This document shows, in pieces, positions 23,484 to 39,850 of a DNA stretch of 64,000 nt. A model generated the notes under the pieces. It did no database searches. It was not told the DNA's origin and saw only the letters and a program-made list of their open reading frames with translations. Each line of letters starts with the position of its first letter. Position 1 is the first letter of the stretch. Source of the DNA: Aggregatilinea lenta (lineage in GTDB: Bacteria > Chloroflexota > Anaerolineae > Aggregatilineales > Aggregatilineaceae); the NCBI RefSeq assembly GCF_003569045.1, contig NZ_BFCB01000003.1, forward strand, positions 310,001 through 374,000. Direction: 5' to 3'. The position numbers and the translations under genes were made by a program.

Positions 23484-23811
23484 TGATCGTGTTCCCTTGT
23501 TGTCGCTCAGGATGGGTATTTCAGAGAGGTGTGACGCGTGATCCGACGAGTGTATTGGCCGGTCGAATACCCCCCAGTTTAGCGCACGCTGGATTCTGTT
23601 CCATCAGACAGTTAGCTCATTTTTGGTGGCCAGAAGACCTACTAGAAACATAGATGAATGCCGCCGGAATGCCCAATGCGGCATGGGCGGAGCGCCCGCT
23701 GGCGGCCAGCGCTGGCGAAGTTGGCGAGAGTTCAGTATAAACGGTCTGCTGCCCGCCAGGGGCAGCAACCCGTTCTCAATACGCCGATCCCGGCTGGATA
23801 GTGACGACCTT
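23484..23811. other. Divergent intergenic region between treX and the sugar phosphorylase
   Basis: 328 bases with no convincing gene. It must hold the treX promoter (minus) and the phosphorylase promoter (plus). Inverted repeats are visible around 23657-23684 (ATGCCGC...GCGGCAT) and 23700-23713 (GCTGG-CGG-CCAGC). I could not assign a clean -35/-10 pair on either strand. Confidence 0.4.
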
Positions 23812-25554
23812 ATGCTTTCTTCATACGACCCACTGCTTGACGACCTGACCGCGCTGTATGGCGAGGCGCGCGGGGCGGATGCCTTCGCGCGGCTGGCGAT
23901 GGCGCTCGATGCGTTCCGCGCTGCACGTCCCGGTTTGGCCGCCCTTGATGACCACGATCCCGCCGAACGCGTGACCGAGCGCGACGTGATGCTGATCACG
24001 TATGGCGACTCGCTGCGCGCGGCAGATCAGCCGCCGCTGCAAACACTGCACGACTTCCTGCTGCGCCACGTGGCCGGGACGATCTCGGCAGTACATGTGC
24101 TGCCGTTCTTCCCGTATTCGTCCGACGACGGCTTTTCGGTGATCGACTACACCGCCGTCGATCCTGCGCTGGGCACGTGGGCTGACATGGAGCGGCTCGG
24201 CGCGGACTTTAAGCTGATGTTCGACGCCGTGATCAACCACATCTCCGCCGAGAGTGACTGGTTCCGGGCGTTCCAGGCGGGCGATCCGGCTTTCCGTGAC
24301 TACTTCATCGTGGCGGATCCGGCGCAGGACCTGTCGCGCGTGGTGCGACCGCGTACACTGCCGCTGCTGACCGCCGTGAACCGGGGCGGGGAGACGGTGC
24401 ACGTCTGGACGACCTTCAGCGACGACCAGATCGACCTGAACTTTGGCAGTCCCGATGTACTGCTGCGCATCATCGACGTGCTGCTGACCTACGTCGCGCA
24501 CGGCGCGAGCTTCATCCGCCTGGACGCGATCGCGTACCTGTGGAAGGAACCCGGCACGACCTGCATCCACCTGGAGCAGACACACCGCGTGGTCCGCCTG
24601 TTCCGGTCGCTGCTCGACGCCGTCGCGCCAAGCGTGGCGATCATCACCGAGACGAACGTGCCCCACGCGGAGAACATCTCCTACTTTGGCGACGGCGCGA
24701 ACGAAGCGCAGCTCGTCTACCAGTTCACGCTGCCGCCGCTGATGCTGCATGCCTTCATCAGCCAGGACGCGACGCGCCTTAGCGCGTGGGCCGCGACGAT
24801 CCAGAACCCGTCCCCCAGCGCGACGTATTTTAACTTCACCGCCTCGCACGATGGCATCGGCGTGCGGCCCGTGGAAGATATCCTGCCGCCGGAGGAAGTC
24901 GGACTGCTGCTGGCACGGACCACCGCGCACGGCGGGGCGGTGTCGTACAAGGACAATCCTGACGGGACGCGCAGCCCTTACGAGCTGAACATCACCTACT
25001 TCGATGCGCTCTCCAACCCGGCGGGCGACGAGCCGCTGGCGCTGCAGGCGCAGCGTTTCATCGCGTCCCAGGCGATCCAGCTGGCGTTCGTGGGCATGCC
25101 GGGGATTTACGTGCACAGCCTGCTCGGTTCGCGCAACTGGGCCGAGGGCGTCGCACAGACCGGGCGGTTGCGCTCGATCAACCGGGAGAAGCTGGACGTC
25201 GCGCAGGTCGAGGCGGCGCTGGTCGATCCGGCGTCGCTGCGCAGCCGGGTATTCACCGCCTACCGCGACCTGATCGCGGCGCGCGTCGGGCAGAAGGCGT
25301 TCCATCCCAACGGCCCGCAGACCGTGCTGAACCTGGATCCGGCCCTGTTTGCCTTGCTGCGTACCTCACCGGACGGCACGGAGCATATCGTCGCCGTGCA
25401 CAACGTCACCGGGCGCGCAGTATCGCTCGATCTGGGCGGCGTGCCGCTGGACGGTGTGCGCGAATACGAAGACTTGATCGCCGGGCAGCGTATCGGTGCG
25501 CACGCGGTGATAGAGGCTGCCCCTTATCAGGTGCTGTGGCTGAAGGCCCATTAG
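23812..25554 (+). CDS. GH13 sugar phosphorylase (sucrose/glucosylglycerate phosphorylase family)
   Basis: A 580-residue GH13 subfamily 18-type enzyme that would split an alpha-glucoside with phosphate to glucose 1-phosphate. Blocks are LPFFPYSSDDGFSVIDY, LMFDAVINHISAESDWF, FIRLDAIAYLWKE (nucleophile Asp), AIITETNVPH (acid/base Glu) and NFTASHDGIGVRP. The KEPGT following the nucleophile block, and the length, fit glucosylglycerate or related phosphorylases as well as sucrose phosphorylase; the substrate cannot be settled by eye. The ATG at 23812 starts the conserved region, and the longer upstream frame is repeat-rich and non-conserved. A GT4 gene follows 10 bases later, probably co-transcribed. 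Confidence 0.9.
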   Translation: MLSSYDPLLDDLTALYGEARGADAFARLAMALDAFRAARPGLAALDDHDPAERVTERDVMLITYGDSLRAADQPPLQTLHDFLLRHVAGTISAVHVLPFFPYSSDDGFSVIDYTAVDPALGTWADMERLGADFKLMFDAVINHISAESDWFRAFQAGDPAFRDYFIVADPAQDLSRVVRPRTLPLLTAVNRGGETVHVWTTFSDDQIDLNFGSPDVLLRIIDVLLTYVAHGASFIRLDAIAYLWKEPGTTCIHLEQTHRVVRLFRSLLDAVAPSVAIITETNVPHAENISYFGDGANEAQLVYQFTLPPLMLHAFISQDATRLSAWAATIQNPSPSATYFNFTASHDGIGVRPVEDILPPEEVGLLLARTTAHGGAVSYKDNPDGTRSPYELNITYFDALSNPAGDEPLALQAQRFIASQAIQLAFVGMPGIYVHSLLGSRNWAEGVAQTGRLRSINREKLDVAQVEAALVDPASLRSRVFTAYRDLIAARVGQKAFHPNGPQTVLNLDPALFALLRTSPDGTEHIVAVHNVTGRAVSLDLGGVPLDGVREYEDLIAGQRIGAHAVIEAAPYQVLWLKAH

Positions 25555-25564
25555 AGGAGGACGT

Positions 25565-26812
25565 ATGCGCATCGGGTTTGTTGCGACTCGTATCGCCGGG
25601 GTGGATGGCGTCTCGCTGGAAATCCTGAAGATCGCGGCCATCCTGCGCGATCTGGGACACGGCAGCTTTTATCTGGCGGGGGAGCTGGGCGCGTTCGCGC
25701 AGCCGGGCATGGAAGTGCCCGCGTTTCATTTCAAGCACCCGGAGGCCGTCGCGCTGCACGACGAAGCGTTTTCCGGCCCGGAGGAATCGCGCGATCTATA
25801 CCGGCGCATCGCGCGCGCAGCGGAACCGTTGAAGGCGCGGCTGTACGAGTTCGTGGAGCGCTACCAACTGGATGCGATCATCACGCAGAACGCCCAGGCG
25901 ATCCCGATGCAGATCCCGCTCGGCGTGGCGCTGCGCGACTTCATCGACGAGACGCATATCCCCACGCTGGCCCACTGTCACGACTTCTACTGGGAGCGCG
26001 ACCGCTTCATCGTGAACCGCATCCCCGACATTTTGCAGACGGCGTTCCCGTCCGAAGGTACCTCCACGCAGATCATGGTGATCAACACGGCCATGCAGCG
26101 CGAGCTGTACGCGCGGCGCAAGCTGAAGGCGACCGTGCTGCCCAACATCTTCGACTTCGAGACGCCTGCGCCCACGCTGGACGACTACAGCCGCCACGTG
26201 CGCGAGGATCTGAACCTCGCGCCGGAAGATCGCCTGATCTTGCAGCCAACGCGTATCATCCGGCGTAAGAACATCGAGCGCGCCGTCGAGCTGGTGCGCC
26301 TGATGCAGGATCGGGACGCGCTGCGGCGGTACGTGCTGGTGGTGACCGGCTATGCGGGCGACGAAACGGACACGTACTACGAGTGGCTGCTGCGGCAGGT
26401 GCAGATCAACGGCGTGGAAGCGCGCTTCATTGGGGATCGCATCGTGGAGCAGCGCGCCGAGCGCGACGGCCAGCGCCTGTATACGCTGTGGGATGTGTAC
26501 CCGCACGCGGACCTGATCAGCTATCTGAGTTCCTACGAGGGGTTTGGAAACGCGCTGCTGGAAACGCTCTACTTCCGCAAGCCGCTGGTGGTCAACGCCT
26601 ATATCCCCTACCGCTCGGACATCAAACCGGCGGGCGTGCAGGCGGTCGAGATCCGCGAGGAGGTCACGCCGGACACGGCGCGCGCCGCGCTGGCTCTGCT
26701 GGACGATCCGGCGGCGGTGCGGCGCATGGTCGAGCACAACTATCAGGTGGGCCTCGATCACTTCTCGTACCACGCCGTCATGCCGATCTTGCAGCGCCTG
26801 CTGGGCGGGTGA
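25565..26812 (+). CDS. GT4-family glycosyltransferase
   Basis: A 415-residue GT-B retaining glycosyltransferase. The N-terminus MRIGFVATRIAGVDGVSLEI resembles glycosyltransferases that make soluble glucosides or mannosides. The C-terminal half has LQPTRIIRRKNIERAVELV and the E-x7-E donor motif in YEGFGNALLETL. AGAGGAGG lies just before the ATG and the phosphorylase stop is 10 bases upstream. The pairing suggests a synthesis/phosphorolysis pair for one glucoside, possibly a compatible solute; that is inference. Confidence 0.85.
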   Translation: MRIGFVATRIAGVDGVSLEILKIAAILRDLGHGSFYLAGELGAFAQPGMEVPAFHFKHPEAVALHDEAFSGPEESRDLYRRIARAAEPLKARLYEFVERYQLDAIITQNAQAIPMQIPLGVALRDFIDETHIPTLAHCHDFYWERDRFIVNRIPDILQTAFPSEGTSTQIMVINTAMQRELYARRKLKATVLPNIFDFETPAPTLDDYSRHVREDLNLAPEDRLILQPTRIIRRKNIERAVELVRLMQDRDALRRYVLVVTGYAGDETDTYYEWLLRQVQINGVEARFIGDRIVEQRAERDGQRLYTLWDVYPHADLISYLSSYEGFGNALLETLYFRKPLVVNAYIPYRSDIKPAGVQAVEIREEVTPDTARAALALLDDPAAVRRMVEHNYQVGLDHFSYHAVMPILQRLLGG

Positions 26813-27147: not shown

Positions 27148-28161
27148 ATGAAAGTTACACTTAAGACCATCGCTGAAGAAGCAGGACTTTCGGTTACCAC
27201 GGTGTCCCGTGCGCTTGCCGGGTACGACGACGTCAACGAAGAAACCCGCCAGCGCATCGCCGCAATTGCCGAGCGTCTGGGCTACCAGCCCAACCTGACC
27301 GCGCGCCATCTTCGCAGCAAATTCACCGACACTATCGGCATGGTGATTCCGCGCACCGCCTACTTCTCGGACTCCTTCTTCATGGAGCTGCTGGCCGGGG
27401 TTGGGCGGCAGGCGTCGGAGTATGGCTTCGACTTGCTTCTGTCCGTCCAGATGTCCGGCGACCCGGAAATGGCGGCCTACCGGCGCATGGTGGCGGGCGC
27501 GCGCGTGGATGGCATGGTGCTCTCGCGTATTCTGCGCCACGACCCGCGCATCGATTACCTGCAATCGGTTGAGCACCCCTTCGTGGCGTTTGGCCGCTCG
27601 GACCAGGACGACTACCCGTTCATCGACGTGGACGGCGCGCTGGGGGTTTGCCAGCTCGTCGGGCACTTCGTCGCCTACGGCCACCGGCGGATTGGCATGA
27701 TCCGCTCGCCGCAGGAGCTGGCCTTCACGCCGATCCGTGTGCAAGGCTACCGGGACGGGCTAAAAGAAGCGGGCCTGGACTACGACGAGACGCTGGTGGT
27801 TGATGGCGACCTGACGCAGTTGAGCGGGCAGCAGGCGGCGGAAGCGCTGTTGGCGCGCCCCGATCCGCCGACCGCGATTATCGCCTGCAACGACCTGATG
27901 GCCCTGGGCGCGATGACGGCTCTGAAGGCGATGGGCCGGCGCGTGGGGACGGATGTCGCCGTCGCCGGATTCGACGACATCGCCGCGTCCGCCGTGGCCG
28001 ATCCGCCGCTGACCACCGTGCGCCAGCCGATTTACGACATCGGCTGCCTGCTGGTGACCCAACTCGTGCATATCCTGCGCGGCACATCCTTTGATGATGA
28101 CCGCACGTCGATTGCTCCTGAACTGATCGTACGCGCATCCAGCGGGAGTCCTCGTTCCTGA
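27148..28161 (+). CDS. LacI-family transcriptional regulator
   Basis: A 337-residue repressor. The N-terminal helix-turn-helix and hinge helix are complete (TLKTIAEEAGLSVTTVSRAL, then YQPNLTARHLRSKFTDTIGM). The periplasmic-binding-like effector domain follows, with late blocks AIIACNDLMALGAM and VAVAGFDDIAASAVADPPLTTV typical of sugar-responsive members. Two palindromes of LacI type lie in its promoter, so it is probably autoregulated. It is followed 110 bases later by an ABC sugar importer operon, its likely main target, although I saw no copy of the operator there. Confidence 0.93.
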   Translation: MKVTLKTIAEEAGLSVTTVSRALAGYDDVNEETRQRIAAIAERLGYQPNLTARHLRSKFTDTIGMVIPRTAYFSDSFFMELLAGVGRQASEYGFDLLLSVQMSGDPEMAAYRRMVAGARVDGMVLSRILRHDPRIDYLQSVEHPFVAFGRSDQDDYPFIDVDGALGVCQLVGHFVAYGHRRIGMIRSPQELAFTPIRVQGYRDGLKEAGLDYDETLVVDGDLTQLSGQQAAEALLARPDPPTAIIACNDLMALGAMTALKAMGRRVGTDVAVAGFDDIAASAVADPPLTTVRQPIYDIGCLLVTQLVHILRGTSFDDDRTSIAPELIVRASSGSPRS

Positions 28162-28270: not shown

Positions 28271-29575
28271 ATGTCTCAGAAGAAACTTCGCTCCCTGGCA
28301 ATCATCCTCCTGGTCGTCGCGCTGACCGGCATCGGCAGCGTGGTGGTCCAGGCACAGGGAGACGATCAGGTCACATTTTTGTCCACGCAGTTCAACATCG
28401 TTGAAGAGAGCGAAGCGTTCCGTGGGATTCTCGACGGCTTCGGCGGCTCGGTCGATTTCATCCCGTCCGAAGAAGGCCCCGCCATTGACCTGCTGCGCGC
28501 GGAATCGGAATCGGGCGAAGGCACGACGGACGTCCTCGGCGCGCTGCACGGTACCTTCCCGCCGCTCGCTAACGACGACCTGCTGTTCGACCTGACCGAT
28601 CTGCTGACTACCATCGAAGCCGACTATGACCTCAACGACGCCTACGTCGAACTGGGCAAGCTGGGCACCGAAGACTACCAGTACTACATCCCGTGGATGC
28701 AGGCGACCTACGTCATGGCCGCCAACGTCGACGCGCTGGAATACCTGCCGGAAGGCGCGGACATCAACGCCCTGACGTGGGACCAGTTCGCCGAATGGTC
28801 CAAGAACATCTACGACGCGACGGGCGAAGCCAAGGTCGGCTTCCCGGTCAAGGGTCTGTTCCACCGTTTCCTCGAAGGCTACATCTACCCGTCGTACACG
28901 GGCGGCATGGTGACCGGGTTCAAGTCCCCCGAGGCCGTGACGATGTTCGAGTTCCTGCGTGACGACCTGTGGCCTTACGTGCACCCGCAGTCGATCAACT
29001 ACGACTTCATGCAGCAGCCGCTGCTCTCCGGCGAAGTGCTGGTCGCGTTCGACCACACCGCCCGCCTGCGCGATGCATTCGAGCAGGAACCCGATCAGTT
29101 CGTGGCCTTCCCCGCGCCCTCCGGCCCGGCGGGCCTGGGCTACATGCCGGTCGTGGTCGGCCTGAGCATGCCCTACACCTCCCCGAATCCTGACGGCGCG
29201 GAAGCGCTGATCCAGTACCTCGTCGAGCCGTCGACGCAGGGCGCGGTCCTGGCCGAACTGGGCTTCTTCCCGGTGGTTGCGGGCGCTGAGACCGGCGACC
29301 TGTCGGCGGGCATGCAGAAGATCGCGGACGCCGTCCAGACGCAGGCGACAGGCGACGCGGCGCTCCCGGCGCTGCTGCCGGTGGGCCTCGGCGAGCGCGG
29401 CGGCGAGATCAACGAGATCTACCGCAACGCCTTCACGCGCATCATTCAGGACGGCGAGGATATCCAGACCGTTCTGGACGAAGAGGGCGCCTCCCTCCAG
29501 GCGCTGCTGGACGACACGGGCGCACCGTGCTGGGTCCCGGATGCGCCGAGCGAAGGCGCGTGCCAGCTTCAGTAA
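28271..29575 (+). CDS. Sugar ABC transporter substrate-binding protein (importer 1)
   Basis: A 434-residue type-1 extracellular solute-binding protein. The Sec signal is KKLRSLAIILLVVALTGIGS, with likely cleavage at VQA-QGDD; there is no lipobox cysteine. The mature domain alternates between lobes (YYIPWMQATYVMAANVDAL, TWDQFAEWSKNIYDATGE), as in cluster B carbohydrate-binding proteins. AAAAGGAG lies 8 bases before the ATG. The paired permeases start about 310 bases downstream, with a MITE-like repeat between them. The absence of a lipid anchor is unusual for a monoderm. Confidence 0.88.
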   Translation: MSQKKLRSLAIILLVVALTGIGSVVVQAQGDDQVTFLSTQFNIVEESEAFRGILDGFGGSVDFIPSEEGPAIDLLRAESESGEGTTDVLGALHGTFPPLANDDLLFDLTDLLTTIEADYDLNDAYVELGKLGTEDYQYYIPWMQATYVMAANVDALEYLPEGADINALTWDQFAEWSKNIYDATGEAKVGFPVKGLFHRFLEGYIYPSYTGGMVTGFKSPEAVTMFEFLRDDLWPYVHPQSINYDFMQQPLLSGEVLVAFDHTARLRDAFEQEPDQFVAFPAPSGPAGLGYMPVVVGLSMPYTSPNPDGAEALIQYLVEPSTQGAVLAELGFFPVVAGAETGDLSAGMQKIADAVQTQATGDAALPALLPVGLGERGGEINEIYRNAFTRIIQDGEDIQTVLDEEGASLQALLDDTGAPCWVPDAPSEGACQLQ

Positions 29576-29883: not shown

Positions 29884-31023
29884 ATGGCGAAGCGCAAGTT
29901 TAACATCGCCCCCTACCTGTTGATCCTGCCCTCGTTCATTTATCTGGTTCTGTTCTTCGCCTGGCCGATGGGCCGTTCGCTGCAGTTGGCGTTTCAGAAA
30001 GACGCCGAGATCCTGCCCGTGCGCACGGCGGTAGGTGACGACATGGACGTGGTCGGCTATCTGCCGATGCAGATCGAAGTGGCGATCACCGACCGGGAGC
30101 GCAGCGAAGAGACGCTGCCCAATGGCCGTACGCGCCCGGTGTACTGGTTCAAGATCGCGGGCGAGAGCGAGGAAGGCGAGCAAGTCGAAGGCTGGGTGAA
30201 CCAGAAATACCTCCAGGTGCAGTCCCGCACCGAGTCCACGTCGGCGCGCGTCGTCAGCGGCGAGGGCACCCAAGAGTGGACGCTGGACTACGTCAAGCGC
30301 ATGGTCAACGACCACAACTTCATGGACGCGCTGACCACCACGTTGATCCTGCTGGTGCTCATTCTGCCGATCCAGTTCGCGCTGGCGATCACGATGGCGC
30401 TGGTGCTTCAGGCCCGCTTGAAGGGCAGCACGATCTTCCTGTACATCTACGCGATCCCGCTCGGCATTTCAGACCTGGCGGCGGGTCTGGTGTGGGTCAA
30501 CATCTTCACGCAGCACGGCTTCCTGAACACCTTTTTGCAGCGGCTGGGGATTATCGACAGCCCCTATATTTTCCTGTCCGCCGAAAACAAGCACTGGATG
30601 ATTGTTGCGATCGTGCTGGCGGAGGTGTGGCGCGCGACGTCCATCGTGATGGTGATCGTCGTCTCCGGCTTGCAGTCAATTCCCGACGAATATCTGGAAG
30701 CGGGCCAGCTCTTTGGCGCGAGCCTGTGGCAGCGCCTGCGCCACATTATTCTGCCGCTGCTGCGGCCCAGCCTGCAGGTCGCGCTGATCCTGCGCACCAT
30801 CCTGGCGTTCCAGGTGTTCGCGGTGGTCGTGGCGCTGACCGGCGGACGTGTGATCACCGTGCTGGCCTATGAAACGTACCGTTGGTACGATCCGGGTGAC
30901 TCCGGCTTCAACAATCCACACGTCGCGGCGGCCTACGCCGGATTCATTATGCTGATCTCACTGGTCTTTTCCGTGGTTTATCTGCGCACCGTACGGACCC
31001 AGGAGCAAGGGGCGTCAACATGA
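29884..31023 (+). CDS. Sugar ABC permease, MalF-type, with SH3-like insert in the first outer loop
   Basis: A 379-residue inner-membrane permease. TM1 is at residues 10-30 (YLLILPSFIYLVLFFAWPMG). Instead of the usual short loop, about 100 residues follow before TM2 (ALTTTLILLVLILPIQFALA). Within them residues 41-115 look like a bacterial SH3 domain (ILPVRTAVGDDMDVVGYLP, PVYWFKIAGESEEGEQVEGW, VNQKYLQV). The conserved EAA loop that contacts the ATPase is EYLEAGQLFGASLWQRLRHI. It overlaps the next permease by 4 bases (ATGA). It forms importer 1 with the upstream binding protein. Confidence 0.87.
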   Translation: MAKRKFNIAPYLLILPSFIYLVLFFAWPMGRSLQLAFQKDAEILPVRTAVGDDMDVVGYLPMQIEVAITDRERSEETLPNGRTRPVYWFKIAGESEEGEQVEGWVNQKYLQVQSRTESTSARVVSGEGTQEWTLDYVKRMVNDHNFMDALTTTLILLVLILPIQFALAITMALVLQARLKGSTIFLYIYAIPLGISDLAAGLVWVNIFTQHGFLNTFLQRLGIIDSPYIFLSAENKHWMIVAIVLAEVWRATSIVMVIVVSGLQSIPDEYLEAGQLFGASLWQRLRHIILPLLRPSLQVALILRTILAFQVFAVVVALTGGRVITVLAYETYRWYDPGDSGFNNPHVAAAYAGFIMLISLVFSVVYLRTVRTQEQGAST

Positions 31024-31901
31024 CCTCAGCTGCACAATCACGCACCACGCCGCGCTCGGTTGCGCTCGACGCAGAGCAAAAGCGCGCGCTGCGCAACTTG
31101 CGGCTCCGGCGGGCGAGCATCTATGCGCTGGCGATCCTGATCGCCGTCTGGATTCTGGCCCCGATCTGGCTGATCGCGACGATGGCGTTCAGCACCCAGG
31201 CAGACGTCTACGCCTACCCCAAGCAGGTCGTGCCGGTGCCATTCACGACCGCCACGATGGATTTCTTCCTGAACTATGCGGGCATCCTCGACGCCACGCT
31301 GAACAGCGTGATCGTCGCGGTGCTGACGCTGGTGTTCTCGACCACGATCGCTGTCCCGGCGGGCTATGCCGTCTCGCGCTACCTGTTCCCCGGGCGCAAC
31401 TCGTACCGGCTGGTCATCCTGGCCGTGCGCGCCTTCCCGATCGTGATCCTGGCCGTGCCGCTGGCGGTGACGTTCTTGCAGTGGGGCCTCTATGACAAGG
31501 TGTACAGCGTGGCGCTGATGCACACCGCCCTGACGCTGCCGACGACGATCCTGGTGGTGTCGAGCGTATTCGCCAGCGTGCCGGTGGAGTTCGAAGAAGC
31601 GGCGCGGGTGTTCGGCGCGTCGCCGCTGCGGGCGTTCGTGCGCGTGGTCCTGCCGCTGGTGCTGCCGGGCATCGCCGCCTCCGCGATTTTCACGTTCGTG
31701 ATGTCGTGGAACGAGGTGTTCGCGGCCACGCTGCTGACCGTGCGCAACCGCACTCTGCCCGCGTTGATTCTCTACACGCTGAACAAGTCGTCGCTCCAGT
31801 TCCAGTATGCGGGCGGGTTCTTCATGCTGGTGCCGTCGATGATCTTCATCTTCTTCATCCGCCGCTACCTGTTTAACATGTGGGGCCAGATCACGAAATA
31901 A
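31020..31901 (+). CDS. Sugar ABC permease, MalG-type (importer 1)
   Basis: A 293-residue permease with six predicted membrane segments. TM1 is ASIYALAILIAVWILAPIWL. The EAA loop FEEAARVFGASPLRAFVRVV is followed by LPLVLPGIAASAIFTFVMSW, typical of MalG/UgpE partners. The C-terminus YLFNMWGQITK is the family ending. Translation is coupled to the MalF-type gene through ATGA overlap, and the ATPase gene starts 11 bases after the stop. Confidence 0.92.
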   Translation: MTSAAQSRTTPRSVALDAEQKRALRNLRLRRASIYALAILIAVWILAPIWLIATMAFSTQADVYAYPKQVVPVPFTTATMDFFLNYAGILDATLNSVIVAVLTLVFSTTIAVPAGYAVSRYLFPGRNSYRLVILAVRAFPIVILAVPLAVTFLQWGLYDKVYSVALMHTALTLPTTILVVSSVFASVPVEFEEAARVFGASPLRAFVRVVLPLVLPGIAASAIFTFVMSWNEVFAATLLTVRNRTLPALILYTLNKSSLQFQYAGGFFMLVPSMIFIFFIRRYLFNMWGQITK

Positions 31902-31912
31902 AGGATGAGGCT

Positions 31913-33024
<1,112 letters not shown>

Positions 33025-33028
<4 letters not shown>

Positions 33029-34836
33029 GCGCAGGCATCGATCTGCCCGCGCCGCTCGATGCAGCCCAGGGCGTCAAGCCGCTCGACTTCGGCGGGCACG
33101 GCATCACCGGCAGCGTCGATGAATACGGGCGGCTGATCGCGCTGAACACATACCACGCCGCGCACGGCTACGTCACGCTGACCGCTGCCGCGCCGTTCCC
33201 CGAAGCGGAGCGGTACAACCCGGCGGCGGTGCGTGCCTATCGTGCCGGACTCGCCGCGCTGGATGGGTTTGGGCCGCTCATCAGCAAGCCAGTGAGGACG
33301 CGTGAGGCATATTTGCTGGAAGGCGCGATCCCGCACGTGCGCCTGACGCTGGAAGACGGCTCGACCCTCGAAAGCACGACCTTCGCCTCGGTCGGCGGCG
33401 TGATCCAGATCTGGCGCGGCGATGTGAAGCCGCTGCGTTTCGTGGGCACGCTCTCCGTGCAGCGCTGCGCCTATACCCAGCTCACCGAGGGTGGGCCGGT
33501 CGTCATGCCGTCGATCCGAACGCGCGCCGAATTATTCGACGGCGTGCTGACGCTCGAAAACCCCGCGCTGTACACCACAGTGGCAATCGCCGGGTTTGCG
33601 CCGGATCTTGTCTGGCAGGCAGAGCAGGATGGTCCGCTGACGCTCGATCTGCCGCTTGCGACGGATGCGCCGGGACTGGTTTTCACGTTCGGATCGGATC
33701 CTCTTCTTACGCGGGAGGATATGCTCTCAATGGCGCAAGTGGATGTCGATCTTGCGCTGCGGCGGGAACGGCGAGATTGGGTGGCGCGGCGCCCGCCGGA
33801 TGCGCGCGATCCGGTCGTGTGGCGCGGGCTGGTCTACGGGGAAATGCTGGCCGTGCCGGTCGGGGAGCCGCTCTGCATCCTGACCGACCACATGCTGCTG
33901 CCGCTGTCGTGGAACCGGGATGCGTACTACGTCGCGCGGGCGCTGCTCAGTTGGGGCGATCCTATCGCCGTGGACGTGGTGCGCCGCCACCTGCTGTGGA
34001 TGTTCGAGACGGCGGACCGGCCCGGCGGCGCGTGGGGCCGCTGCTATCTGGCGAACGGGCGCGTCAAAGACCCGGCGTACCAGCTCGACCAACAGGTGTT
34101 CCCGCTGATCGAGTTGGCCGAATACGTGGCCGAGACGGGCGACGGCGCGACCTGGGAGCGGCTACGCGACCACGTGCCTGCCGTACTGCAGGCGCTGCTG
34201 GCCCGCCGTGATTCGGCTGCGGGCTTGTTCCCCACCGACGAGACACCTGCCGACGACCCGATGGCGTTTCCGTTCCACTTTTCCAGCCACGTTCTGATCT
34301 GGCGCGCGGTTAAGCTGCTGAACGGGCTGGACGACAGCCTCGATTACGAGGCGCTGGCGGACGAGATCCGCGAGCAGGCGCTGGTTGCCTTCGCCACACA
34401 GCGCGACGGTGTGCCGCTGTTCGCCTACGCGACCGACGGCGCGGGGCAGGTGCACTTCTATCACGACGCCAACGACGTGCCGCTGGCGCTGGCTCCGGTG
34501 TGGGGCTTCGTTGAGCCGGACGATCCGGTCTGGCGCGCGACGGTGGACTTCGCATTTTCGCCGGCCAACGTGGGCGGGTACTACGCCGGGCGGCTCGGCT
34601 CGGTGCATACGCGGGCGGCGTGGCCGCTGGGCGATGCACAGGATATCATCGTAGCTCGGACGCTGAAAGATGCCGACCGCGAGCGGCGCGCGTGGGAGCG
34701 GCTGCACGCGGCGGCGCAGTGGGACGGCGCGCTGCCCGAAGCGGTCGATCCGGCCACGAACGCGGTCGCCTCGCGGCACTGGTTCGCGTGGCCGAACGCG
34801 CTCGCGGCGTGGCTGGCGCTGGACGAATCGGGGTGA
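33025..34836 (+). CDS. (Alpha/alpha)6-barrel glycoside hydrolase (GH15/GH125-like)
   Basis: A 603-residue protein. An N-terminal beta-rich domain (residues 1-240) is followed by an (alpha/alpha)6 toroid with LPLSWNRDAYYVARALL, GRCYLANGRVKDPAYQLDQQ, HFYHDANDVPLALAP, AAWPLGDAQDIIVA and ASRHWFAWPNALAAWL. The W-N-R-D motif and acidic residues in the helical hairpins fit glucoamylase-like or exo-mannosidase (GH125)-like enzymes; substrate and family number are not certain. There is no signal peptide, so it should act on imported oligosaccharide in the cytoplasm. It is the last gene of the importer-1 operon (ATGA overlap). Confidence 0.75.
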
Positions 34837-35345: not shown

Positions 35346-36638
35346 ATGAAAGTACGGACTGCACTTTTCATACTTGTGATCGCGGCGCTGGTGCTGCCGG
35401 TGGCGGCGATCAACGCGCAGGATCAGGTGGAGCTGCGCATCACGTGGTATGACGACGGCAACGAAAGCCAGGTCATTCGCGAGGAATTGGACGCGTTCGA
35501 GGCGGAAAACCCCGACATCAAGGTGACCCTCGACGTGGTCCCCTACCAGTCCATCCTCGAAAACCTGCCGCTCCAGTTGGGCGCGGGTGAAGGTCCCGAC
35601 ATCGCGCGCGTGACCGACCTCGGCGGTCTGTCGCAGTACTACTTCGACCTGACGCCCTACCTCGAAGACCCGGCCTACTGGGAAGAGAACTTTGGTCCCT
35701 ATCTCCAGTGGCTGCGCCCGCTCGGCGAAACCGAGGGCATCTACGGCATCCAGAACCAGCTCACCGTGACCGGCCCCTACATCAACCGCACGCTGTACGA
35801 ACAGGCGGGCGTGGCCGTTCCGTGGGAAGAAAAAGAAGCCGTGACGTGGGAAGAGTTCGCCGCGTCGTGCAAGTCCGTCGCTGACACGCTGGACACGGGC
35901 GACATCTTCGGGCTGGCGATGGACCGCAGCGGCCACCGCTTCGCGGGCATGGCGATCAGCTATGGTGCGCAGTTCTTCGACGAAGACGGCCACCCGATCG
36001 TGACGGATGAGGGCTTCCGCAAGGCCGCCGAGCTGTTCATCCAGTGGCACGAAGACGGCACGATGCTGTACGACATTTGGGCGGCGACGCCCGGTTACGC
36101 TGCCGCGAACGAAGAGTTCGCTAACGGGCAGCTGGCGTGCTACATGTCCGGCAGTTGGCAGGTGCAGCAGTTCAGCAACACCATCGGCGACGCGTTCGAC
36201 TGGGAAGTGGTCCCGTTCCCGTGCGGCGATTCGAGCTGCACCGGGATGCCGGGCGGCGCGGCGCTGGTTGCCATCGCGGGCACGGAACACCCCGAAGAAG
36301 TGGGCCGCGTGATGGACTATCTGGCGAGCGAGGACGTGCTGCGTGACTTCCACGCGAAGACCCTGTTCGTGCCGGCGCACGCCGGGATCGCGGCCAGTGG
36401 CGTGCCGTTCGAGACGGATCAGCCGCTGGCGAAGGCTGCGCTCGACGTGTGGTCGTCAGACGTCGCCAACATCGACCCGATCGCCTTCGAGCTTCAGGGC
36501 TACCCGCAGAACCGCATCGTGCTGGACAGCATCCGCGACCGTCTGGCGCAGGTGATCGTCGGCGAGCTGTCGCTGGATGACGCGATCCAGCGCATTCAGG
36601 AAGACATCGACACCGGGCTGGCCGAGCTGGAGCAGTAG
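35346..36638 (+). CDS. Sugar ABC transporter substrate-binding protein (importer 2)
   Basis: A 430-residue type-1 solute-binding protein. The signal peptide is TALFILVIAALVLPVAAINA with cleavage at NA-QDQ; again there is no lipobox. The mature domain has the usual opening ELRITWYDDGNESQVIREEL, then AFEAENPDIKVTL, and the hinge segment FANGQLACYMSGSWQVQQF. Two cysteines (PFPCGDSSCTGMPGG) may form a disulfide near the ligand cleft. GGAGGTACTC lies just before the ATG. It is followed by a MITE copy and then the permease gene. Confidence 0.9.
   Translation: MKVRTALFILVIAALVLPVAAINAQDQVELRITWYDDGNESQVIREELDAFEAENPDIKVTLDVVPYQSILENLPLQLGAGEGPDIARVTDLGGLSQYYFDLTPYLEDPAYWEENFGPYLQWLRPLGETEGIYGIQNQLTVTGPYINRTLYEQAGVAVPWEEKEAVTWEEFAASCKSVADTLDTGDIFGLAMDRSGHRFAGMAISYGAQFFDEDGHPIVTDEGFRKAAELFIQWHEDGTMLYDIWAATPGYAAANEEFANGQLACYMSGSWQVQQFSNTIGDAFDWEVVPFPCGDSSCTGMPGGAALVAIAGTEHPEEVGRVMDYLASEDVLRDFHAKTLFVPAHAGIAASGVPFETDQPLAKAALDVWSSDVANIDPIAFELQGYPQNRIVLDSIRDRLAQVIVGELSLDDAIQRIQEDIDTGLAELEQ

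Positions 36639-38770: not shown

Positions 38771-39850
<1,080 letters not shown>

Follow-up and report, generated by a model that had tools for sequence, protein, structure and literature searches.

A predicted SH3-type domain at the MalF P2 position in carbohydrate importer permeases of Chloroflexota

We found that a MalF-type permease of Aggregatilinea lenta, here called PermF, carries an SH3-type domain in its first extracytoplasmic loop, and that orthologous permeases from corresponding operons carry none, one or two copies of this conserved domain in that loop. As modelled, the insert lies between the helix equivalent to TM3 of Escherichia coli MalF and the conserved core, as the P2 domain does in MalF. 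The chances that the insert has a P2-like docking or guiding role appear to us to be evenly balanced. The architecture is real and conserved, and it is undescribed as far as searches of the open-licence PMC literature reach; those directed at permeases with SH3 or other inserted domains gave no description of it among the papers listed.

The window, that is, the whole stretch of 64,000 nucleotides analyzed here, comes from a genome of 6.2 Mb in five contigs. Its genes for a LacI-family regulator, a binding protein, PermF, a second permease (PermG), a MalK-type ATPase and a GH125-like enzyme follow one another in this order (Table 1). PermF has the composition of a CUT1 ABC importer permease, with a BPD_transp_1 core (PF00528, E = 5e-13, residues 166–366 in Pfam) accompanied by a partner permease, a MalK-type ATPase and a binding protein. 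In a separate observation, the MalG-type permease of the neighbouring cluster (38771–39847) was seen to have a long stretch of about 100 residues (estimated by eye) separating the core from the first helix, and this region gave no Pfam match.

Table 1. Features of the PermF locus (positions in the window)
Feature	Position	Strand	Basis
PermF, MalF-type (CUT1) permease, 379 aa, bearing the SH3 insert	29884..31023	+	ORF; PF00528, SH3_3; SugA/MalF structural match
TM1, residues 9–37	29908..29994	+	helix in AF2 model; putatively equated with E. coli MalF TM3
Insert, residues 38–135	29995..30288	+	loop of 7–9 residues instead in insert-free orthologues
SH3-type domain proper, residues 45–115; conserved G81, T83, R84, P85, G103-W104	30016..30228	+	PF08239 on 45–111, AF2 strands, conservation
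Beta-hairpin, residues 120–132, returning to the core	30241..30279	+	AF2 strands 120–123 and 127–132
Solute-binding protein; signal peptide without lipobox cysteine	28271..29575	+	PF01547, E = 1.9e-24
PermG, MalG-type permease	31020..31901	+	PF00528
MalK/UgpC-type ATPase (start codon by eye)	31913..33028	+	PF00005, OB_MalK; UgpC model 396 bits, cut-off 432
GH125-like glycosidase of the operon	33025..34836	+	PF06824, E = 3.9e-16
LacI-family regulator, upstream	27148..28161	+	PF00356, PF13377
Glycosyltransferase related to mannosylglucosylglycerate synthase	25565..26812	+	NF041101 213 bits, equivalog cut-off 640
GH13 sucrose/glucosylglycerol-phosphorylase-like enzyme (start codon uncertain)	23623..25554	+	PF00128

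Fold and position of the insert

The original prediction, made from the sequence, had placed an SH3-like domain in the first outer loop of a MalF-type permease and had proposed a search with the SH3_3 profile (PF08239). This profile matched residues 45–111 with E = 4.6e-4 (20.8 bits) when the whole protein was scanned and E = 3.1e-5 (24.5 bits) when the insert was scanned alone, so that the copy in the window by itself scores under the curated cut-off of 27 bits. In an alignment of 38 family members (A1), however, SH3_3 matched all 28 insert-bearing members, of which 8 have one SH3 domain and 20 have two, and none of the 10 insert-free members (E ≤ 0.01). Three relatives with two domains, scanned singly, scored 43–49 bits over both copies, and Pfam scans gave no significant family on the insert except SH3 families. 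Because the insert is open, conserved and SH3_3-positive throughout the insert-bearing members, a chance match or a mistranslated stretch was rejected.

Structure prediction, which had also been proposed, yielded an ordered and SH3-like insert, and neither disorder nor a different fold was obtained. In the AF2 model of full-length PermF, the insert is all-beta, with block pLDDT values of 84–93 over residues 41–140, and the model of the insert alone (99 residues) reached a pLDDT of 88, with 92–95 over its residues 11–90; the confidence of both models led us to reject a disordered loop. When candidates from Foldseek were realigned with VIA-align, the ten top rows (Z 5.7–6.8) were domains of SH3 type or domains that bind cell walls; they represent seven different proteins, of bacterial or phage origin except for one fungal muramidase. 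For example, 4r0k was aligned over 55 residues (Z 6.4, rmsd 1.6) and 8b2f over 63 residues (Z 6.1, rmsd 2.4), scores at which (Z below 8) the similarity may go no further than a common arrangement. At the eleventh row Z falls to 4.5. SH3 is named in the titles of 8b2s, 8b2f and 2krs, and others among these structures are SH3 domains as well. Foldseek alone gave nothing at E ≤ 0.001 for the insert-only model, and a profile of the insert (A2) found only weak matches among the PDB sequences (best E = 0.01, 2kyb). Taking profile and structure jointly, we assign the insert a predicted SH3 barrel fold. It has a profile match and a predicted fold in common with bacterial SH3 domains, but here the domain sits inside a loop of a polytopic permease, with both ends tied to membrane helices.

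The insert is under purifying selection and evolves faster than the membrane core. Its Ka/Ks was 0.03–0.37 in seven of nine pairs, those in which it was computable, with several Ks values near saturation, and it exceeded that of the core in all seven. Among the 16 members with one SH3 domain, the best conserved positions of the insert include E76, L78, G81, T83, R84, P85, W88, G103 and W104, and the loop residues G81, T83, R84 and P85 are kept in 15–16 of them. In alignment A1, the hairpin that follows the domain (residues 120–132) resembles the end of the second SH3 domain in the two-SH3 forms. Across the host genome, 90 SH3_3 matches were counted at E ≤ 0.1. A search of this genome with profile A2 for a donor of the domain gave weak matches (best 26.5 bits, against 101.4 bits for the insert itself).

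The PermF model aligned with SugA of mycobacteria (7cad; Z 21.1, rmsd 4.3, 271 residues) and with MalF (2r6g; Z 16.8, rmsd 7.1, 322 residues). In the latter alignment, for which the ranges were used, PermF residues 4–365 correspond to MalF 58–504, and by sequence PermF 151–371 aligns with MalF 282–510. Since P2 of MalF comprises residues 91–271 (PMC3150292), these ranges put the insert at the P2 position; the putative equivalence of TM1 with MalF TM3 also draws on the MalF topology given in PMC2246101. E. coli MalF is likewise a type I carbohydrate importer permease with an extracytoplasmic domain before the core, although the PermF insert is predicted to be of SH3 type and PermF has six helices, in contrast to the eight of MalF (PMC2246101). 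No chain of a maltose transporter was matched by profile A2 among the PDB sequences up to E = 1, and none was among the best 50 structural rows for the insert-only model (Foldseek, VIA-align).

As described in part of PMC2246101, MalG1 and MalG2 of Thermotogales are carbohydrate importer permeases with a large extra hydrophilic region, as is PermF, but their region lies in MalG rather than in a MalF-type protein, and SH3 is not mentioned for it in that part of the source. The scoop motif of DppB, from the E. coli dipeptide importer, follows TM1 on the extracytoplasmic side and makes contact with the binding protein; it is described as two short helices with a loop, whereas the PermF insert is a predicted beta domain (PMC12136057).

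Copy series and distribution of the SH3 insert

We searched 396 genomes of the class with PermF residues 1–145 and obtained matches in 80. At least 29 of the 396 carry an orthologue with one or two SH3 copies (28 full matches and one genome, G368, with a cut contig), and in the other 51 matching genomes the match is confined to the first 53 residues, around TM1. In a sample of 301 genomes from the phylum, we found the host genome itself and one match to residues 3–40. The architecture is unusual, as had been said at the outset, but the insert is not a one-off. Among the matches listed, the closest named relatives of PermF come from Chloroflexota, mostly Anaerolineae assemblies; the SH3-bearing relatives are Chloroflexota assemblies and several labelled Acidimicrobiales, and the insert-free relatives include Meiothermus, Arthrobacter, Nocardia and Bosea. 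L145 and L146, which are nearly identical to each other and labelled as two other phyla, may be mis-binned.

From 120 loci among the matches listed we obtained 107 distinct PermF proteins, including that of the window, some of which are nearly identical; the loci behind the counts of loops, tree rows and binding proteins were found with the family's own queries, and these counts are not population frequencies. The loop between TM1 and the core falls into three length classes that correspond to the number of SH3 domains: 7–9 residues with none (n = 53), 95–99 residues with one (n = 16) and 173–186 residues with two (n = 36). The exceptions are a distant paralogue with 17 residues (L087) and a protein cut by a contig end with 102 (L086). 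With its 96 residues, the loop of the window protein bears out the early estimate of about 100 residues where a short loop is usual. The span first proposed for the domain, 29884–30330, does contain the insert, but it is wider and covers TM1 and the beginning of the core as well (Table 1). The order LacI, binding protein, PermF, PermG and MalK is kept in most of the stretches fetched, except in L064, in stretches cut by contig ends, and in L087 and L095, which contain distant permeases only. L064 is an operon with a two-SH3 permease, and its 16 kb stretch showed no binding protein.

A tree was computed from 105 of these proteins, with L086 and L087 left out. One branch, with a starred support of 100, parts the 52 SH3-bearing rows from the 53 insert-free rows; support is SH-aLRT from a quick search, the tree contains long branches, and the root is the midpoint, so that the tree alone gives no direction of change. 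If the root lies among the insert-free rows, the insert was gained; this is also the simpler interpretation, since those rows come from several phyla. Three changes account for the states of none, one and two SH3 domains. Two rows with two domains (L133 and L134) group with the one-SH3 rows, and as a result the switch between one and two copies occurs twice on the best tree, although the starred branches alone also allow a single switch. The same split was recovered in separate FastTree trees of the PermF core, PermG, MalK and the binding protein (89 taxa), as expected for a linked operon.

A second SH3-bearing permease is encoded in the same genome (L046:6253–8709, minus strand). This MalF-type protein of 819 aa is distantly related to PermF and contains, in the corresponding loop as judged by hydropathy, six repeats of the WY..GW type about 60 residues apart; SH3_3 matched it with 86.6 bits, and four stretches were significant individually. 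In another genus, the orthologues from three genomes (L115–L117) have eight repeats in 920 aa, and six relatives of 339–371 aa are without the insert. When the 60 PermF-like permease matches were compared by eye with the 90 SH3_3 matches of the genome, PermF and this permease were the sole overlaps. SH3 domains would accordingly have entered the loop between TM1 and the core at least twice.

Binding proteins and the role of the insert

The reading we prefer assumes that an SH3-type domain entered the extracytoplasmic TM1–TM2 loop of one carbohydrate importer lineage, most simply once, and that it was afterwards doubled or reduced. Beside the channel mouth, at the P2 position, the domain would touch the docked binding protein, and this contact may help to guide or hold the binding protein or may relay its loaded state. 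We infer that the SH3 domain faces the binding protein and that the contact would affect docking or the activation of the ATPase. The proposal draws on the position of the insert, on the precedent of P2 and on the fact that extracytoplasmic elements of type I importers touch the binding protein. Work by Daus, Grote, Jacso and colleagues reportedly indicates that P2 interacts with MalE throughout the cycle, that it signals whether substrate is available and that activation is mediated by it. A segment of P2 is described as contacting MalE directly (PMC3150292). Against the reading stands that the function of the P2-type domain was termed unknown in 2008 (PMC2246101).

Besides the SH3_3 and structural matches and the single branch that sets the SH3-bearing rows apart, recovered for all four operon proteins, two more observations count for this reading. 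The loop of the two-SH3 forms (173–186 residues) comes close to P2 (181 residues) in length, and tandem binding proteins are confined to the two-SH3 set. In 9 of the 31 two-SH3 systems scored, one chain contains two (6/31) or three (3/31) binding-protein units (L067, L071, L072, L074, L075, L089, L093, L141 and L144, all lipobox-bearing chains), and L090, cut by its contig end and scored as single, shows part of a further unit; in contrast, such chains were found in 0 of 14 one-SH3 and 0 of 50 insert-free systems. Units within one chain are 81–89% identical, and a FastTree tree of the units suggests that several duplications lie behind them. All tandem cases belong to one clade, and the instances are therefore not independent of descent. 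They fit a system in which it matters how well one channel is supplied with loaded binding domains. GlnPQ is comparable in that one chain bears several binding domains, one after another, but these are attached to the membrane domain and have different specificities (PMC8025302), while the units here are similar to one another and are contained in a separate chain. Searches of the open-licence PMC literature found no description of such tandem binding proteins. The 847-aa frame of L176 has no internal repeat; it contains a single unit, which is preceded by a long N-terminal extension in the frame as called.

Other results count against docking. The binding proteins showed no excess change at the SH3 split, where their branch makes up 1.04% of the tree compared with 0.90–1.01% for the other three proteins, and a crude test of 89 of the 107 members found no group-specific conserved substitutions in them. 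The insert (–8) and the binding protein (–51) are both acidic. Moreover, the six- and eight-repeat versions in the other permease are far larger than P2, and several of the best structural relatives of the insert are wall binders.

This last point leads to the main alternative, in which peptidoglycan peptides or a different wall polymer are the ligand of the domain, which would thereby fix the importer to the wall or set the distance between wall and membrane. In cell-wall enzymes, binding to the wall is a frequent function of extracytoplasmic SH3 domains, wall-binding domains are among the top structural rows, and the six- and eight-repeat permease looks stalk-like. The host also has 5 Mur-ligase-domain and 9 transpeptidase matches, but the Mur-ligase matches are weak evidence, since two archaeal controls match too. 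We consider wall anchoring unlikely: anchoring alone leaves the P2 position of the insert unexplained, orthologues in the same class do without it, and a single domain near the membrane would need to reach the wall. A spare SH3 domain inserted by chance and kept only for the stability of TM1 or for assembly would suit the abundance of SH3_3 in the genome and the faster evolution of the insert; its retention across 52 tree rows, Ka/Ks values well below 1 where computable and very tight loop lengths, however, make such passive decoration distinctly improbable. We think it very improbable that the domain serves to bind the cargo, or a polymer of it, beside the channel. Its extracytoplasmic position and the conserved loop residues G81, T83, R84 and P85 would suit such a function, but only SH3 families were significant in the Pfam scans, and a dedicated binding protein is present.

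The original prediction had also suggested that the domain might dock a non-lipidated binding protein. Docking as such is made plausible by the P2 position, but the link with non-lipidation is not supported by the lipobox counts. Under a crude lipobox rule, by which 95 of the 107 systems were scored, a lipobox was found in 0 of 14 one-SH3 systems, which taken by itself would suit an insert that compensates for a non-lipidated binding protein. It was present, however, in 24 of 31 two-SH3 systems and was missing in 21 of 50 insert-free systems, at least three of which are doubtful (L157 and L172, which have no N-terminus, and L199, where the rule likely missed a lipobox). Two further entries are affected by truncation: L016 is cut by the locus edge but is complete in the window, with no lipobox, and L090, cut by a contig end, was scored as single with no lipobox. 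The binding protein of the neighbouring cluster (35346–36638) lacks a lipobox cysteine, as does that of the PermF operon, and the host genome contains matches to Lgt and LspA. Compensation for missing lipidation is thus hardly credible as an explanation.

Cargo and implications

The NF041101 model of mannosylglucosylglycerate synthase covers nearly the full length of the nearby glycosyltransferase, and the GH125-like enzyme resembles alpha-mannosidases. Guessing from the genes of the operon, the cargo might be a glucosyl- or mannosyl-glucosyl-glycerate-like solute or a glycosylated glycerol. With regard to the docking reading, a bolder extension, which we hold to be doubtful, is that MalF-type permeases of Chloroflexota acquired SH3 domains for docking more than once at their P2 site (1, 2, 6 or 8 copies in two distantly related families) and that the binding protein of one of these lineages has multiplied to two or three heads within one chain. 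Domain copies and heads would together make up a modular tower for docking, by which more than one loaded binding domain stays close to a single channel.

Type I carbohydrate importers whose permease bears an extracytoplasmic domain at the P2 site are the known part of this architecture, and the new part is the predicted SH3-type domain found there. P2 is a peculiar feature of MalF, whose importer is among the best studied of the ABC type. With none, one or two copies in orthologous operons and six or eight elsewhere, the role of the P2 position becomes directly testable: the natural insert-free orthologue corresponds to an exact deletion of the SH3 insert, and the two- and three-headed binding proteins offer natural variants with which to ask what number of binding domains a single channel is able to use.
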